From: Syntrophomonadaceae bacterium
GTDB lineage: Bacteria; Bacillota; Dethiobacteria; DTU022
NCBI GenBank assembly: GCA_003567725.1
Contig: PWYU01000008.1
Location: forward strand, 1-47,912
Direction: 5' to 3'
Length of the DNA stretch: 47,912 bases
Part shown: piece by piece, positions 6,509 through 47,912 of the stretch
How the letters are laid out: each line of letters starts with the position of its first letter
Numbering within the stretch: the first letter of the stretch is position 1
The notes under the pieces: model-generated
Database searches by the model: none
The model's input: the letters and a program-made list of their open reading frames with translations, nothing else
What the model was told of the DNA's origin: nothing
Translations under genes and position numbers: made by a program

Positions 6509-7660
6509 TTACCCCTCATTTTCTGCGCTTTCGAGAATATTTTTTAAAACCGGCTCATACCACTGGAAGTAGAAGCGATATTCTAAGGGGAGGCCGGGAA
6601 GATATGAAAAAAAGCGCTGTAAAGCTGCGCTACCGGACAGGCAGGCAGGCAAAAGGGCGGGGAGCTGATCGGCAAAGTCTCCGGCAAAATATATCCGCTT
6701 TGCCTTGCCGGGCGGGTCATGTTTGATCATGGCCGGAAATCGGTGGGAAAGGCCCCTGGCCTCGAGGGCTTCGCGGTTTTTTTCTGCTATTGGCAGCTCG
6801 TAGTAGGCAAGGATTTCTGCATGTTCATTGTCTTCATCAAATTTAAGCAGCTCCACCCAGTAAAGATAAGGCGCTTGCCGGGATGTGCCCTGGAGCAGTT
6901 CGTGGTTGCCGCTTCTAACAACCGGCCAGGGGTAATTAAACTGCTCTTCTTTGATGATCACCAGGTCGGTGTACCAGCCCAGGCCGGTAACATCTTCGCG
7001 CACAAAAACCATCCCTGCTCCTGTTAAATCCCACTCCAGACCGTAGATCCGGCTGTAGAGTTCTTTCATCCAGAAAGCAGTTTCATCAAGATCGGCATAA
7101 TAGCGGGCTAACCAGCCATCATAGGTTACTGCAAAAAGCTCTTCTAAAATGCCGGCAGCTTCTGGATCAAGGTAGGTAGGATAGCCGAAGATATTGTGTT
7201 CGCCGATTAAGATGCGGCCCTCTGTGGCAGCAAAATCTTTGATTGCCTTTGATTCGTTTTTAGTAAAACCGCCGTAGATTAAATCGATATCCTGGTGTTC
7301 ATGAGGAAGCCTTTCTTCGTATAGCTCAAGGCCTTCTTCATAATCGTAAATACCATAGGTGTCTGCAAGGTAGAGCAGATCCACATCGGTCAGGTCTTCT
7401 TCTGCCAGGATATCTTTGGCGCCGGTTTCGGGATGGTAACCCAGGTAATCTTCATCTTTTTGATAGAAATGACCTCCTGAATCGGTAAAGCGGCGATGTT
7501 CGGCAATCCAAAAGATAGCGCGGTGCTCGCGGTAATCAGGCTCGGGTACCGTTTTATCGACCACGAGGAGGTTTATCTTCCCGGTCGGTAAAAGATGCCA
7601 GGTTGAAATGTAGCCTCCGATTAAAACGGCGATAATAAGTAAAACATGCCAGCGCTGCAT
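6509..7660 (-). CDS. Unrecognised anchored extracytoplasmic protein
   Basis: I do not recognise this 383-residue protein. An uncleaved signal or anchor (about residues 5-25) is followed by a soluble part with no membrane spans. Alternating hydrophobic strands and acidic loops (INLLVVDKT near residue 30, DVDLLYLADTYG near 115, GRILIGEHN near 150, KRIYFAGDF near 320) suggest a Rossmann-like or glutamine-amidotransferase-like fold, without a clear Cys-His-Glu triad. It lies between the glycosidase-like lipoprotein and the histidine kinase, and its stop is 2 bases from the kinase ATG. A role in processing or sensing of the polysaccharide is an inference from context. Confidence 0.6.
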   Translation of the reverse strand: MQRWHVLLIIAVLIGGYISTWHLLPTGKINLLVVDKTVPEPDYREHRAIFWIAEHRRFTDSGGHFYQKDEDYLGYHPETGAKDILAEEDLTDVDLLYLADTYGIYDYEEGLELYEERLPHEHQDIDLIYGGFTKNESKAIKDFAATEGRILIGEHNIFGYPTYLDPEAAGILEELFAVTYDGWLARYYADLDETAFWMKELYSRIYGLEWDLTGAGMVFVREDVTGLGWYTDLVIIKEEQFNYPWPVVRSGNHELLQGTSRQAPYLYWVELLKFDEDNEHAEILAYYELPIAEKNREALEARGLSHRFPAMIKHDPPGKAKRIYFAGDFADQLPALLPACLSGSAALQRFFSYLPGLPLEYRFYFQWYEPVLKNILESAENEG

Positions 7661-7900
7661 ATCTTTTACCTTTCTTAAATAATTGCTTGTATTAAAAAAT
7701 CCGGCTTATCTTTCTTGATCTTCTTTACAAGTGGGTATAATTCCTTTTAAGATTATGGTATGAGGGAAAACATTTTTGTCTTTTCTATGATTCGGGGCGC
7801 TCTATAGAAGGATAAAGGTTTACACTGGTATGTTTTTTCAGGTGGACCGGTGCGGTCAAAGCAGGCCGGCATACTTTTTTAAGTTTAAGTCTGGTAATGA

Positions 7901-10153
7901 TTATTTCAAGGTGCCGAAATAATCGGCAATAAGATCATAACTGTCTTTCAACCTGAAGCGGTGCCGGGGTTCCTCCCAACCGTCCCAGAGATAAGGCGAA
8001 ATGCTTTCTGTAAAACGGTTTTCTATACGCGGTTCAAAATCGATCACCTCCGGTTCTCCTTCCGGGAATGTCTTTTCCTTTTCTTTGCTGTAAGTGGCAG
8101 CATATAAGATGAAGCCCTCTGTTGATTGATAGGATAGTTCATCACGCGCCGGATGTTCCAGATACTGACCGGTATCATTGATAATCTTATGTTCCGAAGG
8201 ATCTGAAACATTAAGGAGCATCCAGGGCAGGCGGATCTTTATCCGGCCGGTTTCACTGTCGAAATACCAGTGAGCCAGCGAATTGTAGTCTTCCTCCCCC
8301 GGGTTGTAGCTGCCGTAATTTAATGTACTTTCATCTGCATAAAGCGCTTCAAAGATTCTCCCATCGGCGGTAATCCGTTCACGATTGACAAGAGTTTCAA
8401 TGCGGGTAAACCTGCCTTCATGGGTTGGTTCAGGGTTAAAATTAAACTTTCCCCGGTTGTAAGAAGGCACTGTTAACAGGGAGGCCTCCTCTGGTGAGGC
8501 AATGTGGAGCAGGAATACTGCACCTGTAGGTAGTTCAGGAAGGCCGCTAAACGGAATTTGAAAATCGCCGGCGTCCCGGAAACCGGTGTCAATGCCCACA
8601 GCAAAACCCAGGTCCTCCCAGGGGATTTCTTCTCCGGAAGCCTGATTTTCAAAATCTATGGCGATGGACAGGTAAAAGAAAGCTTCATCTGCCCCTGTAT
8701 CTATGGCTATGATTTTACCAAAAGAGGCGGGTTGGCCTTTAACGGGCTGGAAAACAGTTTGATTGGAAGCAGAGATCCAGTTTGTGTAAAGCTGATCATG
8801 GCTGCGCCCCGGAGGTTCCACTGCGACCAGCCCGTAATTCTGTTCCGGGCACATCGCGTTTTGCCACAATACCTGCCGTTCCCAGGGAACCATGTATGGT
8901 TCGGTGTTCCAGGTTTTTTTAGCCCATTCGTCAGTCCATTCGAATATGATCCCACCGGCATAACCTTCATCTAAAATGGAGCGCATCATGCGCACGGTCA
9001 TTTCTCCCTGGTCGGTTTCATCAAGTCCCCCATGGTGCAGCCCGTCCGGGCTTAAATGGGCGGTGTTCAGGGAAGTGGATATGCCGAATTCGGCGACCAG
9101 GGCCGGGTAGGATGGATGGATTTCCATAAACTTGTTCAAATAACCTTTATATCTAAATACCCCTTCGTCGTCTTCATATTCAGCAAAGGCTGGTTCGTTA
9201 TTCATGAAATCCGGATAGTTAGGGTAGATATGGTAAGCTCCGAAAAATCCGGACCTGTTAAGGGGGCCGGCTGAAAAAATATTAGGATCTACTGTCTCGC
9301 GCACGTTATAGCCGGGAGTACCGTCTGCCTCATATTCAGTTTTGTGATCTAGAGGATCGAGAGTCGGCCAACTGACAAAGCCGGCAGGATACTGCCAGCC
9401 GTACCGGTCCTGGCTGTGAGCAAGAGCCCGATCGCACATCTCGGCTATCCAGGTTTCGGTAGGGGAGGCTTTGCCGGGAGCTGCCCGGACGTAATCGCCG
9501 TCATATCCATCAAGCTCTGGATTGGCCCTGTCAGTAGCTTCTACTTCTTCTGGCTCCAGCTCGCGACCGATAAGAATCCCTAAAACGTAGGGTGAAACAT
9601 CGGCTGAATAATTGCCGTAAGCACGGTAAGGGCGGGCAGGGATGTCTGCATTACCGTGCAGGGCGTCGATAACCAGTTCGATTTCCTTTAAATATGCTTC
9701 CCGGTAATCTTCATCGTGAAAGTTCAGGCCAGGTACATCGTCGTGGGGCCAGATTTCCTGGATCAGGTAAATTTTTGCGTTGTCCGGATCAGAGTTGAAT
9801 TCTTTTAGAACACTGTAAAATGCGGGATCTAAAAGGGTATAGATGCGAACAGTGTTAGCGTTCATAGCAGCGATATCTTCCAGCCATGAACGGTAAAGCT
9901 CCCGGTCTGCAGGGAACTGGGTATACCAGCGCCCGGGCAAGGAGGTGCCTGCATTAACCCCTTTAACTATAAGATCCGACCAGCTTTCACCGTCATAAAC
10001 TTCAAAATAGCGCTCAGTGGTCCGCGCTATAAAGCTGGTATCGTTAACCTGGAAGTGGCCTATTTCGGGTGCTTCTTCTTTTTCACAACCCATCGAAAGG
10101 CTGATCATAAGGAAGATAACTATCATAACCAGGAGCAGTTTCTTTAAACCCAA
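7901..10153 (-). CDS. Large TIM-barrel glycoside-hydrolase-like lipoprotein
   Basis: This protein is about 750 residues, with a lipoprotein signal ending at SLSMGC (Cys23 from the chosen start). I prefer the TTG at 10153. GGGGGATG lies at a good distance before it, and an extended -10 box at 10190-10195 makes the upstream in-frame ATGs at 10204 and 10171 unlikely. The first part (GVNAGTSLPG, then NTVRIYTLLDPAFY) resembles clan GH-A TIM barrels such as GH2, GH17 or GH72 proteins. LVAEFGIS is a good nucleophile-strand candidate, and EWTDEW follows. The C-terminal 250 residues look like beta-sandwich domains. It is the first gene of the module. Glucan trimming or transglycosylation is likely, but the exact family is not certain. 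Confidence 0.75.
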   Translation of the reverse strand: MGLKKLLLVMIVIFLMISLSMGCEKEEAPEIGHFQVNDTSFIARTTERYFEVYDGESWSDLIVKGVNAGTSLPGRWYTQFPADRELYRSWLEDIAAMNANTVRIYTLLDPAFYSVLKEFNSDPDNAKIYLIQEIWPHDDVPGLNFHDEDYREAYLKEIELVIDALHGNADIPARPYRAYGNYSADVSPYVLGILIGRELEPEEVEATDRANPELDGYDGDYVRAAPGKASPTETWIAEMCDRALAHSQDRYGWQYPAGFVSWPTLDPLDHKTEYEADGTPGYNVRETVDPNIFSAGPLNRSGFFGAYHIYPNYPDFMNNEPAFAEYEDDEGVFRYKGYLNKFMEIHPSYPALVAEFGISTSLNTAHLSPDGLHHGGLDETDQGEMTVRMMRSILDEGYAGGIIFEWTDEWAKKTWNTEPYMVPWERQVLWQNAMCPEQNYGLVAVEPPGRSHDQLYTNWISASNQTVFQPVKGQPASFGKIIAIDTGADEAFFYLSIAIDFENQASGEEIPWEDLGFAVGIDTGFRDAGDFQIPFSGLPELPTGAVFLLHIASPEEASLLTVPSYNRGKFNFNPEPTHEGRFTRIETLVNRERITADGRIFEALYADESTLNYGSYNPGEEDYNSLAHWYFDSETGRIKIRLPWMLLNVSDPSEHKIINDTGQYLEHPARDELSYQSTEGFILYAATYSKEKEKTFPEGEPEVIDFEPRIENRFTESISPYLWDGWEEPRHRFRLKDSYDLIADYFGTLK

Positions 10154-43477: not shown

Positions 43478-44017
43478 TTAACGTCTCCACGGGCTAAAGA
43501 GCCTGGTTAAAGTAGTTAAATCTCTTTCCAGCAGGTTGTTAAGCTGGTCAATGTTTGCGGCCATCTTTTTTATTTTTTTTGAAGAAAGTTTGGGGCCATG
43601 ATGGTGGAAATTGAGATAGAGGATGAGGTAGTCTTCCAGTAAAAAAGCGGTTTCCGGTGAGAGGATAGGAGGTCTTTTATCAGGGAAAGGACTTTTCATT
43701 AACTTGAGCAGGCGCGCATGCCAGTCCAGGCTGGCAGGAATCCATTTATCAATGGTTCTGGCAATATGCAGCAGGCAATCTTCGACATGGAGATAGAAGT
43801 CGAATATCAGGCAGCCAAAAGAAAATAAATTGTATTTGTCTGTATGCTTATCAAGCAGAGCCTTGTTTTTGTTTACTTCTGCAGCAATTTGTTGCATTTC
43901 AGCAAGGTTGGAATCAATCATAATGCAGAGCCTGGCCAGGTCTTCTTTTGAGGGTGCCGGGTTTTCATGCCGGTATTTTTTAATGTCGATTGTTTGTACC
44001 TCCTCTCCCGGGTCCAC
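43478..44017 (-). CDS. HepT-like (HEPN-fold) protein with unclear start
   Basis: This all-helical protein of up to 179 residues resembles the HepT-like ribonuclease toxin group, mainly at PPILSPETAFLLEDYLILYL, where such proteins read 'ETA-LL-EYL'. The usual R-x4-H catalytic motif after it is not intact; NFHHHG lies at that place. The frame is open to a GTG at 44017, but AGGAGG lies inside the frame, at about 43999-44005. No ATG, GTG or TTG follows at normal spacing; only ATC or ATT codons do. No MNT antitoxin gene is adjacent. It may start at an unusual codon, or be inactive. Confidence 0.5.
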   Translation of the reverse strand: MDPGEEVQTIDIKKYRHENPAPSKEDLARLCIMIDSNLAEMQQIAAEVNKNKALLDKHTDKYNLFSFGCLIFDFYLHVEDCLLHIARTIDKWIPASLDWHARLLKLMKSPFPDKRPPILSPETAFLLEDYLILYLNFHHHGPKLSSKKIKKMAANIDQLNNLLERDLTTLTRLFSPWRR

Positions 44018-44197: not shown

Positions 44198-45988
44198 TTA
44201 CATAAAAAGAGCTCCCAACCGGGCGATTACTCCGCCAACTATAAAAGCCAGACCTGTTGTTAGTAAAAGAATAAAAAGGGCGAACAGGGGCTTAAATTCA
44301 CGGGCCACAGTGGCTAAAATGGCAATACAGGGCACATAGAAAAGGCCGACGATGGCCCCGGTGAAAAGCTGCAGGGTAGTAAGATCAAGATCTATAAGAG
44401 GCAGCACTGACAGCTCACGGCGCAATATGCCCAGGACCAGGGGAGCAGCCGCTTCTTCGGGCAGCCTGAGCCAGCCGGTAACCAGGGGGCTTATTGCCCT
44501 GCCCAAGGCAGCCATTATCCCGGTTTCATAGAGGACTGCTGCGACGGCAACCGCTCCGATCATCGGTAAGGCTCCATCAGTGATATACAGTTTCAAGCGT
44601 AAATAGAGTTTTTTCATAATCCCATCCAACCGGGGCAGGAGCAGGTCGGGGATTTCTACCATGCTCTCAAGCTGTTCGCCTTTAATGAAGCGATTCATAA
44701 TCAGGCCGGCAGTGATCATAACCAGCCAGCTGAATAAGAACACAGAAATCATAACAGCTGCGGAGCGGGCTGCCAGTAAAGCTATAAAGGCTCCGGTTTG
44801 AGAAATACAGGGTACTGCCAGGCAGACCAGGATTGTAACTATAAGTCTTTCTTTGCGAGAAGAAAGCGATCTGCTGGCCATAATGGCCGGTATACCGCAG
44901 CCGTAGCCAAGGGTAAGAGGAATAATGCCCGAACCGGCCAGGCCAATTCTGTTAAATAACCCGTCCAGTAAAATAGCAAGGCGCGGCATATAGCCGCTGT
45001 CCTCTACCAGGTTCAATACGGTATAAAAGGAAAGCACGTAAGGAAGAACGAGGGTAAAAGGCCACTCCAACCCTTTGACAAGAAAGCCGTACTCGCCAAT
45101 AAAAATATTTTGGATGATACCGGGTGGTAATAGTTCTGAAACCAGCATGACCAGGGGAGGAATAATTAAACCCCGAAATAGCGGTAACAGCAGAAACTGG
45201 CGCAGTCCCATTCCTATTCCGACTATACCCGCAAAAATTACCAGCATAATTACAGCCGCAAGCGGAAGCCCTGGCCAGGGCCTGGTTAAAAGCTGATCCC
45301 ATTTATCCCTGTTCGAATTTACCGGCGGTTCTCTTTTAAAGAAGACCTGGTCGACTATCTTCTCGACATTATCCCACGTTGCTTTCAGCTGTTGCTTTTC
45401 TGTTCTTTTTTGTTCATTAGAGCCAAGGCTTGCAAGTATTTTTTCCCGCAGGTGGTCCAAACCATCGCCCGAGACTGCAATGGTGGGGACAACCGGTATA
45501 TTCAATTGTTCGGATAAAGCTTCGATATCGATAAAATAGCCTTTTTCACGGGCCAGGTCACTGCGGTTCAAGGCGACCAGCAAAGGGGCTTCCAATTCTA
45601 AAAGCTGGAGTAGTAAATAGAGACCTCCTTCGAAATTACCGGCATCAAGCACATAAACGATCAAATCCGGAGGTTTGTCAAGATCCACTTCAACATTGCC
45701 GGAGTCGCAACAGCAGACTGGTGGGGCTGTTCGGGGGCAATCTTTGCCGGTTTTACCGCAAACCATTTCTACTGCTACTCTTTCTGCTTCACAGGTAGCA
45801 CATAATGAATAAGTACCGGGGACATCTATTAAATTGATGATTTCTGAATCCAGCTTCATGGTACCGCTGGCAAAATCCACGGTTGTTCCGGTGTAGTTGG
45901 CCACCCTGACGTTTAAACCGGTAAGGCGGTTGAAAATAGCGCTTTTCCCTACGTTGGGAGCACCCATCAGTAGAATTGTTTTGTTCAT
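44198..45988 (-). CDS. feoB: Ferrous iron transport protein B with Cys-rich G-domain insert
   Basis: This 596-residue FeoB has an N-terminal GTPase domain: G1 GAPNVGKSAIFN (9-20), G2 Thr around NYTGTTVD, G3 DVPG (55-58), G4 NRSD (141-144). The membrane part, from about residue 235, contains the Gate-type repeats and GYGCGIPAIMASRSL. After G3, where normal FeoB reads on to 'SEEE', there is a stretch with Cys63, 66, 77, 84, 92, 93 and 94, including VCCCDSG, roughly 25 residues longer than usual. This may bind metal or an Fe-S cluster and gate GTPase activity. It is the last gene of a minus-strand operon, 17 bases after feoA. Confidence 0.92.
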   Translation of the reverse strand: MNKTILLMGAPNVGKSAIFNRLTGLNVRVANYTGTTVDFASGTMKLDSEIINLIDVPGTYSLCATCEAERVAVEMVCGKTGKDCPRTAPPVCCCDSGNVEVDLDKPPDLIVYVLDAGNFEGGLYLLLQLLELEAPLLVALNRSDLAREKGYFIDIEALSEQLNIPVVPTIAVSGDGLDHLREKILASLGSNEQKRTEKQQLKATWDNVEKIVDQVFFKREPPVNSNRDKWDQLLTRPWPGLPLAAVIMLVIFAGIVGIGMGLRQFLLLPLFRGLIIPPLVMLVSELLPPGIIQNIFIGEYGFLVKGLEWPFTLVLPYVLSFYTVLNLVEDSGYMPRLAILLDGLFNRIGLAGSGIIPLTLGYGCGIPAIMASRSLSSRKERLIVTILVCLAVPCISQTGAFIALLAARSAAVMISVFLFSWLVMITAGLIMNRFIKGEQLESMVEIPDLLLPRLDGIMKKLYLRLKLYITDGALPMIGAVAVAAVLYETGIMAALGRAISPLVTGWLRLPEEAAAPLVLGILRRELSVLPLIDLDLTTLQLFTGAIVGLFYVPCIAILATVAREFKPLFALFILLLTTGLAFIVGGVIARLGALFM

Positions 45989-46005: not shown

Positions 46006-46269
46006 CTAAACAGGTTGGATAGTTATTTTTTCTGCCAGTCGCCGGTGTAAAGCTATCTGGCGATCACCGGTTTTAATTACTACCGGGCCCCCAAAGAGTT
46101 GATGGCCCCGGCAGTGCAGCATTTTGCCCTTTCGAATGCCCAGTGTGGAAAGCATAATATTATCGGGAACATCTAAGACTATCCCGTTGTTTCCCGTTGA
46201 TAATTCCAGTAAAGATACCCGGTTATCACGCTCAACGTTTAATTTTAAATCTTCTACTTTTAGAGCCAT
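46006..46269 (-). CDS. feoA: FeoA-domain protein
   Basis: This 87-residue SH3-like FeoA protein has MLSTLGIRKGKMLHCRG in the middle and VVIKTGDRQIALHRRLAEKI near the end, typical of the family. It assists FeoB in ferrous iron uptake. GGAGGTG lies 8 bases before the ATG. The feoB gene follows after 17 bases, and a SAM-binding protein gene lies 25 bases upstream in the same direction. Confidence 0.9.
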   Translation of the reverse strand: MALKVEDLKLNVERDNRVSLLELSTGNNGIVLDVPDNIMLSTLGIRKGKMLHCRGHQLFGGPVVIKTGDRQIALHRRLAEKITIQPV

Positions 46270-46294
46270 TAAAAATCACCTCCGGCTGTTGTTC

Positions 46295-46846
46295 CTACAG
46301 GTTGGCATATAGTACAGAGCAATCAAATGTTGCCTGCTTCTGATCAATGCGCCTGTTAAATAAAGGTCTGGAAGGGAGCCTGTCATACTGGTGGGCCACT
46401 TCAGAACGGGGGCTTCGAAAGACCAGGCGCGCTTCATTTCCGCCTTTAGCAATCAGGCTATCCAGGATTTCTTGTTTCGGTTCTGCCTGAAGGGCGACCA
46501 GGGCAACGTCAAAGTCATAGGGAAAAGGATCCCGTCCATCATAATTTAATACGGAGATTAAATTATCCATGTTTTGAGCGGCTATACATTTACGGGCTAC
46601 ATTAACCGCATTTTGGTCGTTGTCAACCGCCCACACCCGGGCCCCGGTAAATTTGGCTATTAAAAGCGCTGTAAAAGGAATCCCCCCGCAGCCGATGTTA
46701 AGGACCCGGTCACTGGCGGTTATAGCGGCCAACTTGATTTCGTTATGCACTACTTCATGATATATCCTGGAGTAAAGTGAAACCAGCACCCTGCTGGAAG
46801 CAATCTTTTTTTCCATCATTGCCACTACCGGTGCAACTATCTTCAT
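46295..46846 (-). CDS. Nicotianamine-synthase-like SAM-binding protein, second copy
   Basis: This protein is 183 residues from ATG 46846, preceded by AGGTG at 6 bases. A Rossmann SAM-binding core begins DRVLNIGCGGIPFTALLIAKF, followed by VWAVDNDQNAVNVA. Later EARLVFRSPRSE recalls the 'VVRSAHG' block of nicotianamine synthases, which join aminobutyrate units from SAM. It overlaps the 3' end of the preceding similar gene by 92 bases in another frame. Standing directly upstream of feoAB, a metallophore or iron-related role is possible. An ordinary methyltransferase is the alternative. Confidence 0.65.
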   Translation of the reverse strand: MKIVAPVVAMMEKKIASSRVLVSLYSRIYHEVVHNEIKLAAITASDRVLNIGCGGIPFTALLIAKFTGARVWAVDNDQNAVNVARKCIAAQNMDNLISVLNYDGRDPFPYDFDVALVALQAEPKQEILDSLIAKGGNEARLVFRSPRSEVAHQYDRLPSRPLFNRRIDQKQATFDCSVLYANL

Positions 46847-47507
46847 CCACAACACCTGCCTGATCTGTAATGATTTTTTCGATAACAACACTCTCTGCAC
46901 CCAGCCTGGAAACAGCTTTTTTTGCGTTAAACGGGTATTTCCCCTCCACATTTACCTGTGATGACTTAAACAAAGCTTTTTCCAGCCATAGCGGGTTATT
47001 CCTGTAAATCAATTTCCCTCCCGGTTTTATTCTTTTCAGGGCTTGAAAAATAATATCTTCCTTTGGACATACGTTTAATGAAATCCAGACTGCATCATAA
47101 GTTGAACAATCTATACACTTTCCATTCTTGGGAAATAGCATGATTTTTGAAGAGTACCCTTCTTTTGCAACCAGGGCCTGCGCTTTATCTACTGCTTCAA
47201 TATTGCAGTCACAGGCATCAACGCGGCAGCCTTTTTGAGCCAGGTACAGAGCTGTACAGGGGTAGGATCCGCAGCCGATGTGTAGCACCGAGGCCCCTTC
47301 TTTGAGGTTGGTCAGGGCAAATTCTTTATCGAGCATGTCTGTGTAAAATAAATTTGCGTACAGGGAAGAGACTCTTCCGGAGCGGACCGCCAAAGCTTCC
47401 AAACGTTGAGCGATGCTGAAAAAAGGAGCCACCTGTTTTTTAAAACCGGGCTTCTTAGTATAACTTGGGTTACAACTGATATTAGTATGCGTGAGTAGAT
47501 ATTTCAT
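46755..47507 (-). CDS. Nicotianamine-synthase-like SAM-binding protein, first copy
   Basis: This 250-residue protein has a SAM-binding core, ASVLHIGCGSYPCTALYLAQKG, then VDACDCNIEAVDKA, and GGKLIYRNNPLWLEKALF near residue 180. It resembles the next gene product and the nicotianamine synthase fold. It is cysteine-rich (CNP, CDC, GKCIDC). Its last 30 residues (from about DEDSCTGSGND) overlap the start of the next gene and look like accidental coding, so either a true overlap or a lost stop codon is possible. The ATG follows GAGGTAA. Confidence 0.7.
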   Translation of the reverse strand: MKYLLTHTNISCNPSYTKKPGFKKQVAPFFSIAQRLEALAVRSGRVSSLYANLFYTDMLDKEFALTNLKEGASVLHIGCGSYPCTALYLAQKGCRVDACDCNIEAVDKAQALVAKEGYSSKIMLFPKNGKCIDCSTYDAVWISLNVCPKEDIIFQALKRIKPGGKLIYRNNPLWLEKALFKSSQVNVEGKYPFNAKKAVSRLGAESVVIEKIITDQAGVVDEDSCTGSGNDGKKDCFQQGAGFTLLQDIS

Positions 47508-47553: not shown

Positions 47554-47912
47554 TCAGCAGCGTATAAGGGCAGCCAAACCTTTTGTTCGGTTGTCACCCG
47601 CTTTTGTTGTGCTATCTGTTTCTGCAGGAGACTTATAAATAACCAGGTATAAAGCGCCCAGGGCAGACCAGAGCAGGGGAATCCAAAAGGTGATCAAGCG
47701 TGATATCAAAGCTACAGCCAGTCCTTCGGCAGGGGTTATTCCGAAAAAGGAAAACATTAATACCATTGTGCCTTCATATGACCCCAGCCCACCCGGGAGC
47801 ACAGGAACCATGCTGACCAGGTAAGCTGTAAAGGTAATGATCGCTACTGCCGGGAGGCCAATATTAAGATCAAGCATACCGGTAACCAGGAATACTTTTA
47901 ACGGATATAACA
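47554..47912 (-). CDS. UPF0104/LPG-synthase-type membrane protein, 3' part only
   Basis: The reading frame runs off the right edge of the window, so only the C-terminal 119 residues are visible. Spans with VSMVPVLPGGLGSYEGTMV and LISRLITFWIPLLW match the lysylphosphatidylglycerol synthase transmembrane family (also called flippase-like UPF0104). No synthase domain follows. An internal ATG at 47877 should not be taken as the start, because the frame is open and hydrophobic upstream of it. The hydrophilic tail is followed by the nicotianamine-synthase-like genes. Confidence 0.8.
   Translation of the reverse strand, partial: LYPLKVFLVTGMLDLNIGLPAVAIITFTAYLVSMVPVLPGGLGSYEGTMVLMFSFFGITPAEGLAVALISRLITFWIPLLWSALGALYLVIYKSPAETDSTTKAGDNRTKGLAALIRC

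Follow-up and report, generated by a model that had tools for sequence, protein, structure and literature searches.

A candidate metal-acquisition cassette joining short nicotianamine-synthase-like proteins to a variant FeoB in anaerobic Bacillota

Nicotianamine synthase (NAS) makes nicotianamine, a plant molecule that binds metals. Known ligands of the NAS type pair with importers other than FeoB, which is usually viewed as carrying free Fe(II). Why, then, should genes resembling NAS stand directly before feoA and feoB? The question was raised by a stretch of 47,912 nucleotides from a Syntrophomonadaceae bacterium (hereafter, the window), which is contig C95 of a genome, G000, of 127 contigs. 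The first-pass annotation had described genes for two related SAM-binding proteins on one strand just before feoA and feoB, and this arrangement was confirmed: the two reading frames, here called g1 and g2, are of the Rossmann/SAM type and encode proteins that are about 30% identical, and the cassette lies on the minus strand in the order flippase-like gene end, g1, g2, feoA, feoB. Its features are as follows.

47554..47910, minus strand: 3′ part of an LPG_synthase_TM (flippase-like) gene that runs off the contig; PF03706, 66.7 bits against a cut-off of 33.4
46755..47507, minus strand: g1, NAS-like protein 1, a g1-type paralog of 250 aa whose last residues are indel-shifted; MtNAS is the top match of a seven-relative profile
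46874..46879, no strand: T-run, one base shorter in the window than in L006 and C103 by three-copy alignment
46295..46846, minus strand: g2, NAS-like protein 2, 183 aa, a short form without the N-terminal domain; phmmer to 3o31, 1.8e-10
46006..46269, minus strand: feoA; PF04023, 43.2 bits against a cut-off of 23
44198..45988, minus strand: feoB of the NAS-linked variant clade; PF02421, PF07670 and PF07664; 886 bits to the clade profile; variant gate motif

The range 46006-47507, given earlier for two NAS-like genes, does contain them and also takes in feoA. The g2 reading frame spans 46295-46951, with a likely start at 46846 (183 aa). The flippase part present in the window exceeded both cut-offs (PF03706 as listed; TIGR00374, 58.9 against 43.2). 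When contigs of the named genomes were scanned for relatives, one locus was found, L006, on the MAG contig SLHT01000187.1 of a Syntrophomonadaceae bacterium; the cassette order there is that of the window, and the flippase gene is complete (376 aa, 140.6 bits to PF03706). Comparison of the window with L006 indicated purifying selection on both g1 (dN/dS 0.20 over 210 codons, up to the indel) and g2 (dN/dS 0.15 over 183 codons). Both NAS-like genes are genuine, and their linkage to feoAB is strong. A gene for a HepT-like_2 protein lies 3′ of feoB on the same strand (window 43478-44017).

The frames of g1 and g2 had also been reported to overlap by about 92 bases. That overlap is present in the window, but it is not general: in both L006 and C103, a second cassette contig of 3616 bases in the window's genome bin (also listed as L028, G000:C103), g1 is shorter (223 aa), and its overlap with g2 is limited to the 4 bases ATGA. 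The window lacks one base at the T-run 46874-46879, and this deletion shifts the 3′ end of g1 into a longer frame and so produces the 92-base overlap. A sequence error could account for the missing base as well as a true mutation could; a functional overlap of the two frames was rejected. Given that C103 is 99.8% identical to L006, a contig from another bin, across its full 3616 bases, C103 was probably misbinned into G000, and two true cassette copies in the window genome were likewise rejected.

When the two window proteins were searched alone, they gave weak, mixed methyltransferase matches with NAS among the best. Their scores against PF03059 (NAS) were 25.6 bits for g1 and 22.1 bits for g2, below the curated cut-off of 27.1, which was exceeded by all three relatives tested (L113, 51.6; L114, 44.6; L115, 38.5 bits). 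The curated cut-off of the CntL family NF033601 (350) was reached by neither protein (g2, 38.5 bits; g1, 20.1). On its own, g2 matched the thermonicotianamine synthase MtNAS (3o31, by phmmer as listed), and in profile searches of solved structures MtNAS ranked first and CntL next, both for the g2 type (13 sequences, 2e-18) and for the g1 type (7 sequences, 1.2e-7). Moreover, an AlphaFold model of g2, built from a four-sequence input (mean pLDDT 70; residues 145-176 below 50), had MtNAS as its best match in Foldseek (E 2.1e-7), and VIA likewise ranked MtNAS first (Z 13.6, rmsd 3.7, 160 aligned; top non-NAS row, Z 11.8). The kinship of both proteins with NAS, as first proposed, is thus supported by the profiles and Pfam scores of their relatives and by the g2 model, the window's own two proteins falling below the Pfam cut-off.

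Glu81 and Tyr107 of MtNAS, and Glu77 and Tyr106 of AtNAS1, are described as essential in PMC10248798 and PMC10491745. The tyrosine (MtNAS Tyr107, AtNAS1 Tyr106) is kept as Tyr29 of g2 and Tyr55 of g1, in 64/64 and 14/14 rows, respectively, with a letter at that position. Glu12 of g2 is invariant (63/63 and 13/13 rows). Aligned through CntL profiles it matches MtNAS Glu81, and by the VIA range the two are about one residue apart at most, but it is four residues off in direct profile alignment to the MtNAS-like group; the profiles of this comparison were built without certain rows, namely fragments and a small number of the g1 type. Glu12 probably corresponds to the catalytic Glu81. In two of three MtNAS rows, residue 1 of the g2 model aligned to MtNAS residues 69-71, and in the best VIA row to residue 71. 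Because the model starts at this point, the N-terminal helical domain of NAS is missing, and the sequence rows of the short proteins agree, with 8-20 residues preceding Glu12 in most of them.

In a quick tree search with several long branches, run without the L032 fragment and the two L028 rows, the g1-type proteins formed one clade (14 rows, SH-aLRT 97). Thirteen of these 14 rows, including the window's, share a locus with the other type; for the exception, L159, the other type is found elsewhere in the same genome (L120). The g1/g2 duplication is ancient by this tree, and as a rule neither copy has been lost. The earlier idea of a tandem duplication that diverged thus holds for an ancient event, but not for a recent one, which the tree rules out.

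To what extent is this arrangement shared? With the g2 profile at E values up to 1e-12, matches were found in 25 of 97 genomes of the class and in 47 of 398 genomes drawn from the phylum; the 398 are a sample from a larger group, for which the frequencies hold, and many are drafts, contig ends accounting for many incomplete cassettes. Five of the 47 were treated as having long NAS or CntL types only (G160, G201, G420, G423, G459), leaving 42 with short NAS. The count of short-NAS loci was 68, not including the window, the C103 twin or five loci of the long type. A FeoB of the variant clade described below lay within 4 kb on the same strand in 50 of these, FeoA was present in 51 and a flippase-like gene in 53, and at least one of the three in 62. 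Eight of the 50 loci with variant FeoB had no flippase nearby, three of them at a contig end. Among the 18 loci without variant FeoB, eight have a flippase, with FeoB absent from the stretch or fragmentary, and most of these are close to where a contig stops; in L131 and L134 the contig breaks off within feoB, L163 has a NAS fragment next to a FeoB of another type, and seven are stray copies (L130, L132, L140, L152, L153, L159, L161), of which L152 retains the flippase. By genome, short NAS and variant FeoB occurred together in 38, NAS only in four (G180, G352, G432, G448), FeoB only in two (G195, G353) and neither in 354 (Fisher 4e-46, uncorrected for descent). The linkage between NAS and feo is far above chance, and the NAS-like enzymes are very probably linked in function to the variant FeoB. 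The first-pass annotation, which knew of no link between NAS and FeoB, had named a lack of conserved linkage with feo as one refuting outcome; such linkage is found here, together with a flippase-like partner, an unusual FeoB clade and, in relatives, a PssA-like gene, all three of which had been missed.

Gene order within the cassette is highly variable, the commonest being feoA-feoB-NAS-flippase (24/60 loci by exact label). Two loci carry gene fusions, flippase-NAS in L113 (571 residues) and NAS-FeoA in L114 (300 residues), the NAS part falling in the g1 clade in both. A gene for a YibE/F-like membrane protein is next downstream of the cassette in L038, L039, L114, L120 and L122 (Pfam on three of the five). 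In L163 (G448), a 90-residue NAS fragment at 7157-7429 adjoins feoA and a FeoB outside the variant clade. Viral contigs were rejected as carriers of the cassette (47 pattern matches, no relatives), as were plasmids, in which there were only distant NAS-family and other matches.

The FeoB proteins of these loci were compared by means of a profile built from 16 cassette FeoBs. Complete members of the clade scored at least 756 bits and those cut short by a contig end 652 or more, compared with at most 561 for FeoBs outside it; two fragments beside NAS, in L131 (356 bits) and L110 (108 bits), were not placeable by score. The clade was present in 40 of the 398 genomes. In the window FeoB, the FeoB_N, Gate and FeoB_C domains all exceeded their cut-offs; against TIGR00437 (cut-off 315.65) it scored 303.6 and the relative L115 scored 324.9. 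In GxGCNVPA, which we take to be the FeoB Gate motif, Asn is replaced by Ala or Gly in every clade row that the pattern caught (it did not match L142 or L197), and the segment after the gate motif is PCxxQ. Outside the clade, GxGCNVP occurs in some FeoBs and SCGARLP in one. The window FeoB (44198-45988) also carries a cysteine-rich insert in its G domain, which is common to L029 and partly to L034 and is missing in many clade members. In L199 (G389), a second variant-clade FeoB at 6900-8675 stands in a stretch without FeoA, NAS or flippase.

A further partner was found in relatives of the window. In 20 loci, a PssA-like CDP-alcohol phosphatidyltransferase gene lies directly behind the flippase gene (gap of at most 38 bases, or overlap). 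PF01066 was over its cut-off in the three such proteins tested, and what we take to be the catalytic motif of CDP-alcohol phosphatidyltransferases is kept in 19 of the 20. Many of them score at or slightly below the cut-off of the pssA model, so that serine as the alcohol is uncertain. Phosphatidylserine decarboxylase was found in none of the 20 genomes with a cassette-joined PssA-like gene, but in 12 of the 13 cassette genomes whose pssA stands apart from the cassette, and an ordinary role in phosphatidylethanolamine synthesis was therefore ruled out for the cassette gene; several cassette relatives have an ordinary pssA and psd elsewhere in the genome. G195 and G353 keep FeoB in a locus that otherwise corresponds but has lost NAS, flippase and PssA together (a broken NAS remnant persists in G353), and neither genome gives a pssA match. 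The three thus behave as one module added to FeoB.

No pssA-family match was found in the window genome G000. Across genomes, a pssA-family gene was present in 1 of 15 with a g1-type NAS, compared with 41 of 44 without; counted by family, the contrast was 1/7 against 19/20 (p 1.6e-4). In the window's own family, f1, pssA was found in none of the eight genomes lacking NAS. Given that f1 is without pssA even where NAS is absent, descent explains part of this exclusion.

The neighbourhoods of stray and long copies were also compared. Of the stray short NAS genes, that of L132 adjoins genes for ZnuA, an ABC-3 permease and an ABC ATPase (ZnuABC-type), a DtxR-type regulator and MFS proteins; that of L140 adjoins EamA and an ABC system with a family-5 solute-binding protein (peptide/nickel-type); and that of L159 adjoins DUF4198. 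Among the fetched loci searched, the opine dehydrogenase CntM was found only beside the long CntL-type genes of L165, L166 and L167, which have no feo nearby, and at no cassette locus. In L162 and L164, full-length NAS proteins of the phylum, neither CntM nor feo was found nearby; the L164 protein matched MtNAS at 1.2e-92. A search of 16 sources with Rfam for riboswitches that would name a metal yielded one cobalamin and one purine riboswitch, neither of them directly upstream of cassette genes, as well as tRNAs and a group II intron.

What could such a set of genes do? At the level of sequence, one or two N-terminally truncated NAS proteins travel with FeoA, a variant FeoB, an LPG_synthase_TM protein and often a PssA-like enzyme. 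The cassette may well be a metal-acquisition unit, in which a NAS-like transferase would build a metal ligand, probably on a phospholipid, that is flipped out for a specialised FeoB. The enzyme would transfer a 3-amino-3-carboxypropyl group from SAM to an amine to form a nicotianamine-type metal ligand; the aminocarboxypropyl chemistry is likely, a metal ligand as the product is probable at a somewhat lower level, and chances are about even that this product is lipid-bound rather than soluble. The absence of the N-terminal domain, which holds the substrate, and the company of lipid enzymes make the head group of a phospholipid the likeliest acceptor; where a PssA is encoded, this could be phosphatidylserine. 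Once turned to the outer leaflet by the flippase-like protein, the product would keep Fe(II), or a metal like it, ready for the variant FeoB; Fe(II) is suggested by homology to FeoB. The phosphatidylserine version is not general, since G000 has no pssA match. In the window lineage, g1 may supply a starter that g2 extends, a guess from the distribution by which g1-type NAS and pssA would be alternative starters (pssA in 1/15 genomes with g1 against 41/44 without). To the complete reading, namely a membrane-anchored metallophore in which an aminocarboxypropylated phospholipid (phosphatidylserine from the cassette PssA, or an amino-acid lipid begun by g1) is flipped to the surface and gives its metal to the dedicated FeoB clade, we assign a probability of about 0.4. 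The varied substrates of the flippase family count against the metal-acquisition reading, as do the eight of 50 variant-FeoB loci with no flippase nearby, the four-residue offset of the catalytic Glu in one profile alignment and the ordinary pssA and psd that several relatives carry elsewhere.

Several other explanations were weighed against this one. The cassette could instead make a soluble nicotianamine-like metallophore, exported by the flippase-family protein, with metal or complex entering via the variant FeoB and PssA as a passenger. The known products of NAS and CntL are all soluble, according to PMC10248798 and PMC10491745, and the neighbours of stray short NAS genes include EamA or MFS transporters as well as metal-type ABC importers. 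However, the N-terminal domain is missing, the partner, which in L113 forms one protein with NAS, is of a family of lipid flippases, and PssA is joined to the module and lost with it; we consider a soluble product possible but unlikely. It is also conceivable, at clearly longer odds, that a lipid is modified without becoming a metal ligand and alters membrane charge or supplies the lipid surroundings of the variant FeoB. Both the flippase and PssA partners and the survival of FeoB without the module in G195 and G353 would fit, whereas the NAS family makes metal ligands and the stray copies lie beside other metal importers. A cytosolic chelator, comparable to the thermonicotianamine of MtNAS, that buffers incoming metal while the flippase serves another lipid appears improbable: although MtNAS is the nearest solved relative and the NAS-FeoA fusion of L114 places the enzyme on the cytosolic side of the transporter, NAS is tied to the flippase no less strongly than to FeoB, and its loss comes together with that of flippase and PssA. 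Least credible are ordinary methyltransferases with no functional relation to NAS, for although several generic methyltransferase families score near NAS for the window proteins, MtNAS and CntL clearly lead for the relatives' profiles and all three relatives tested exceed the NAS cut-off.

The cassette has parts in common with several known systems. With MtNAS (3fpe, 3fpf, 3fpg, 3fpj, 3o31), g2 shares the SAM-binding domain, the residue corresponding to Tyr107 and an AEPK block, but the cassette proteins lack about 70 N-terminal residues, occur as two paralogs together in the window and are tied to FeoB and the flippase. The FeoB has the G domain, the Gate domains and the FeoA partner of its family, but it belongs to a separate clade with an altered gate motif, the best-known motifs GxGCNVPA and SCGARLP not being kept. 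In MprF, a transferase domain lies behind the LPG_synthase_TM region; the region is shared, and the transferase domain fused behind it in L113 follows the same order, but the cassette transferase is NAS-like and the MprF model scores far below its cut-off. The opine metallophore clusters (staphylopine, pseudopaline) have a homologous transferase, CntL; in contrast, the cassette is without CntM and, as a rule, without an adjoining ABC importer, and identity with a known cluster of this kind was rejected because CntM was absent from the cassette loci among those searched. If the lipid reading is right, the betaine-lipid enzyme BtaA would carry out the same type of reaction (aminocarboxypropyl to lipid); PMC10491745 describes BtaA as lacking homology with NAS, MtNAS and CntL. 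No earlier description of the cassette was found in the open-licence literature; subscription journals are mostly outside this coverage, and an earlier note may exist. In its available text, PMC7438024 does not mention 'feo', and the available part of PMC12419801, relevant by its wording, does not treat the cassette. Taken together, the joining of one FeoB clade with an enzyme of the NAS type, a flippase-like protein and, in many cases, a phosphatidyltransferase suggests that metal crosses the membrane of anaerobic Bacillota by a new route, perhaps by way of a chelating lipid.
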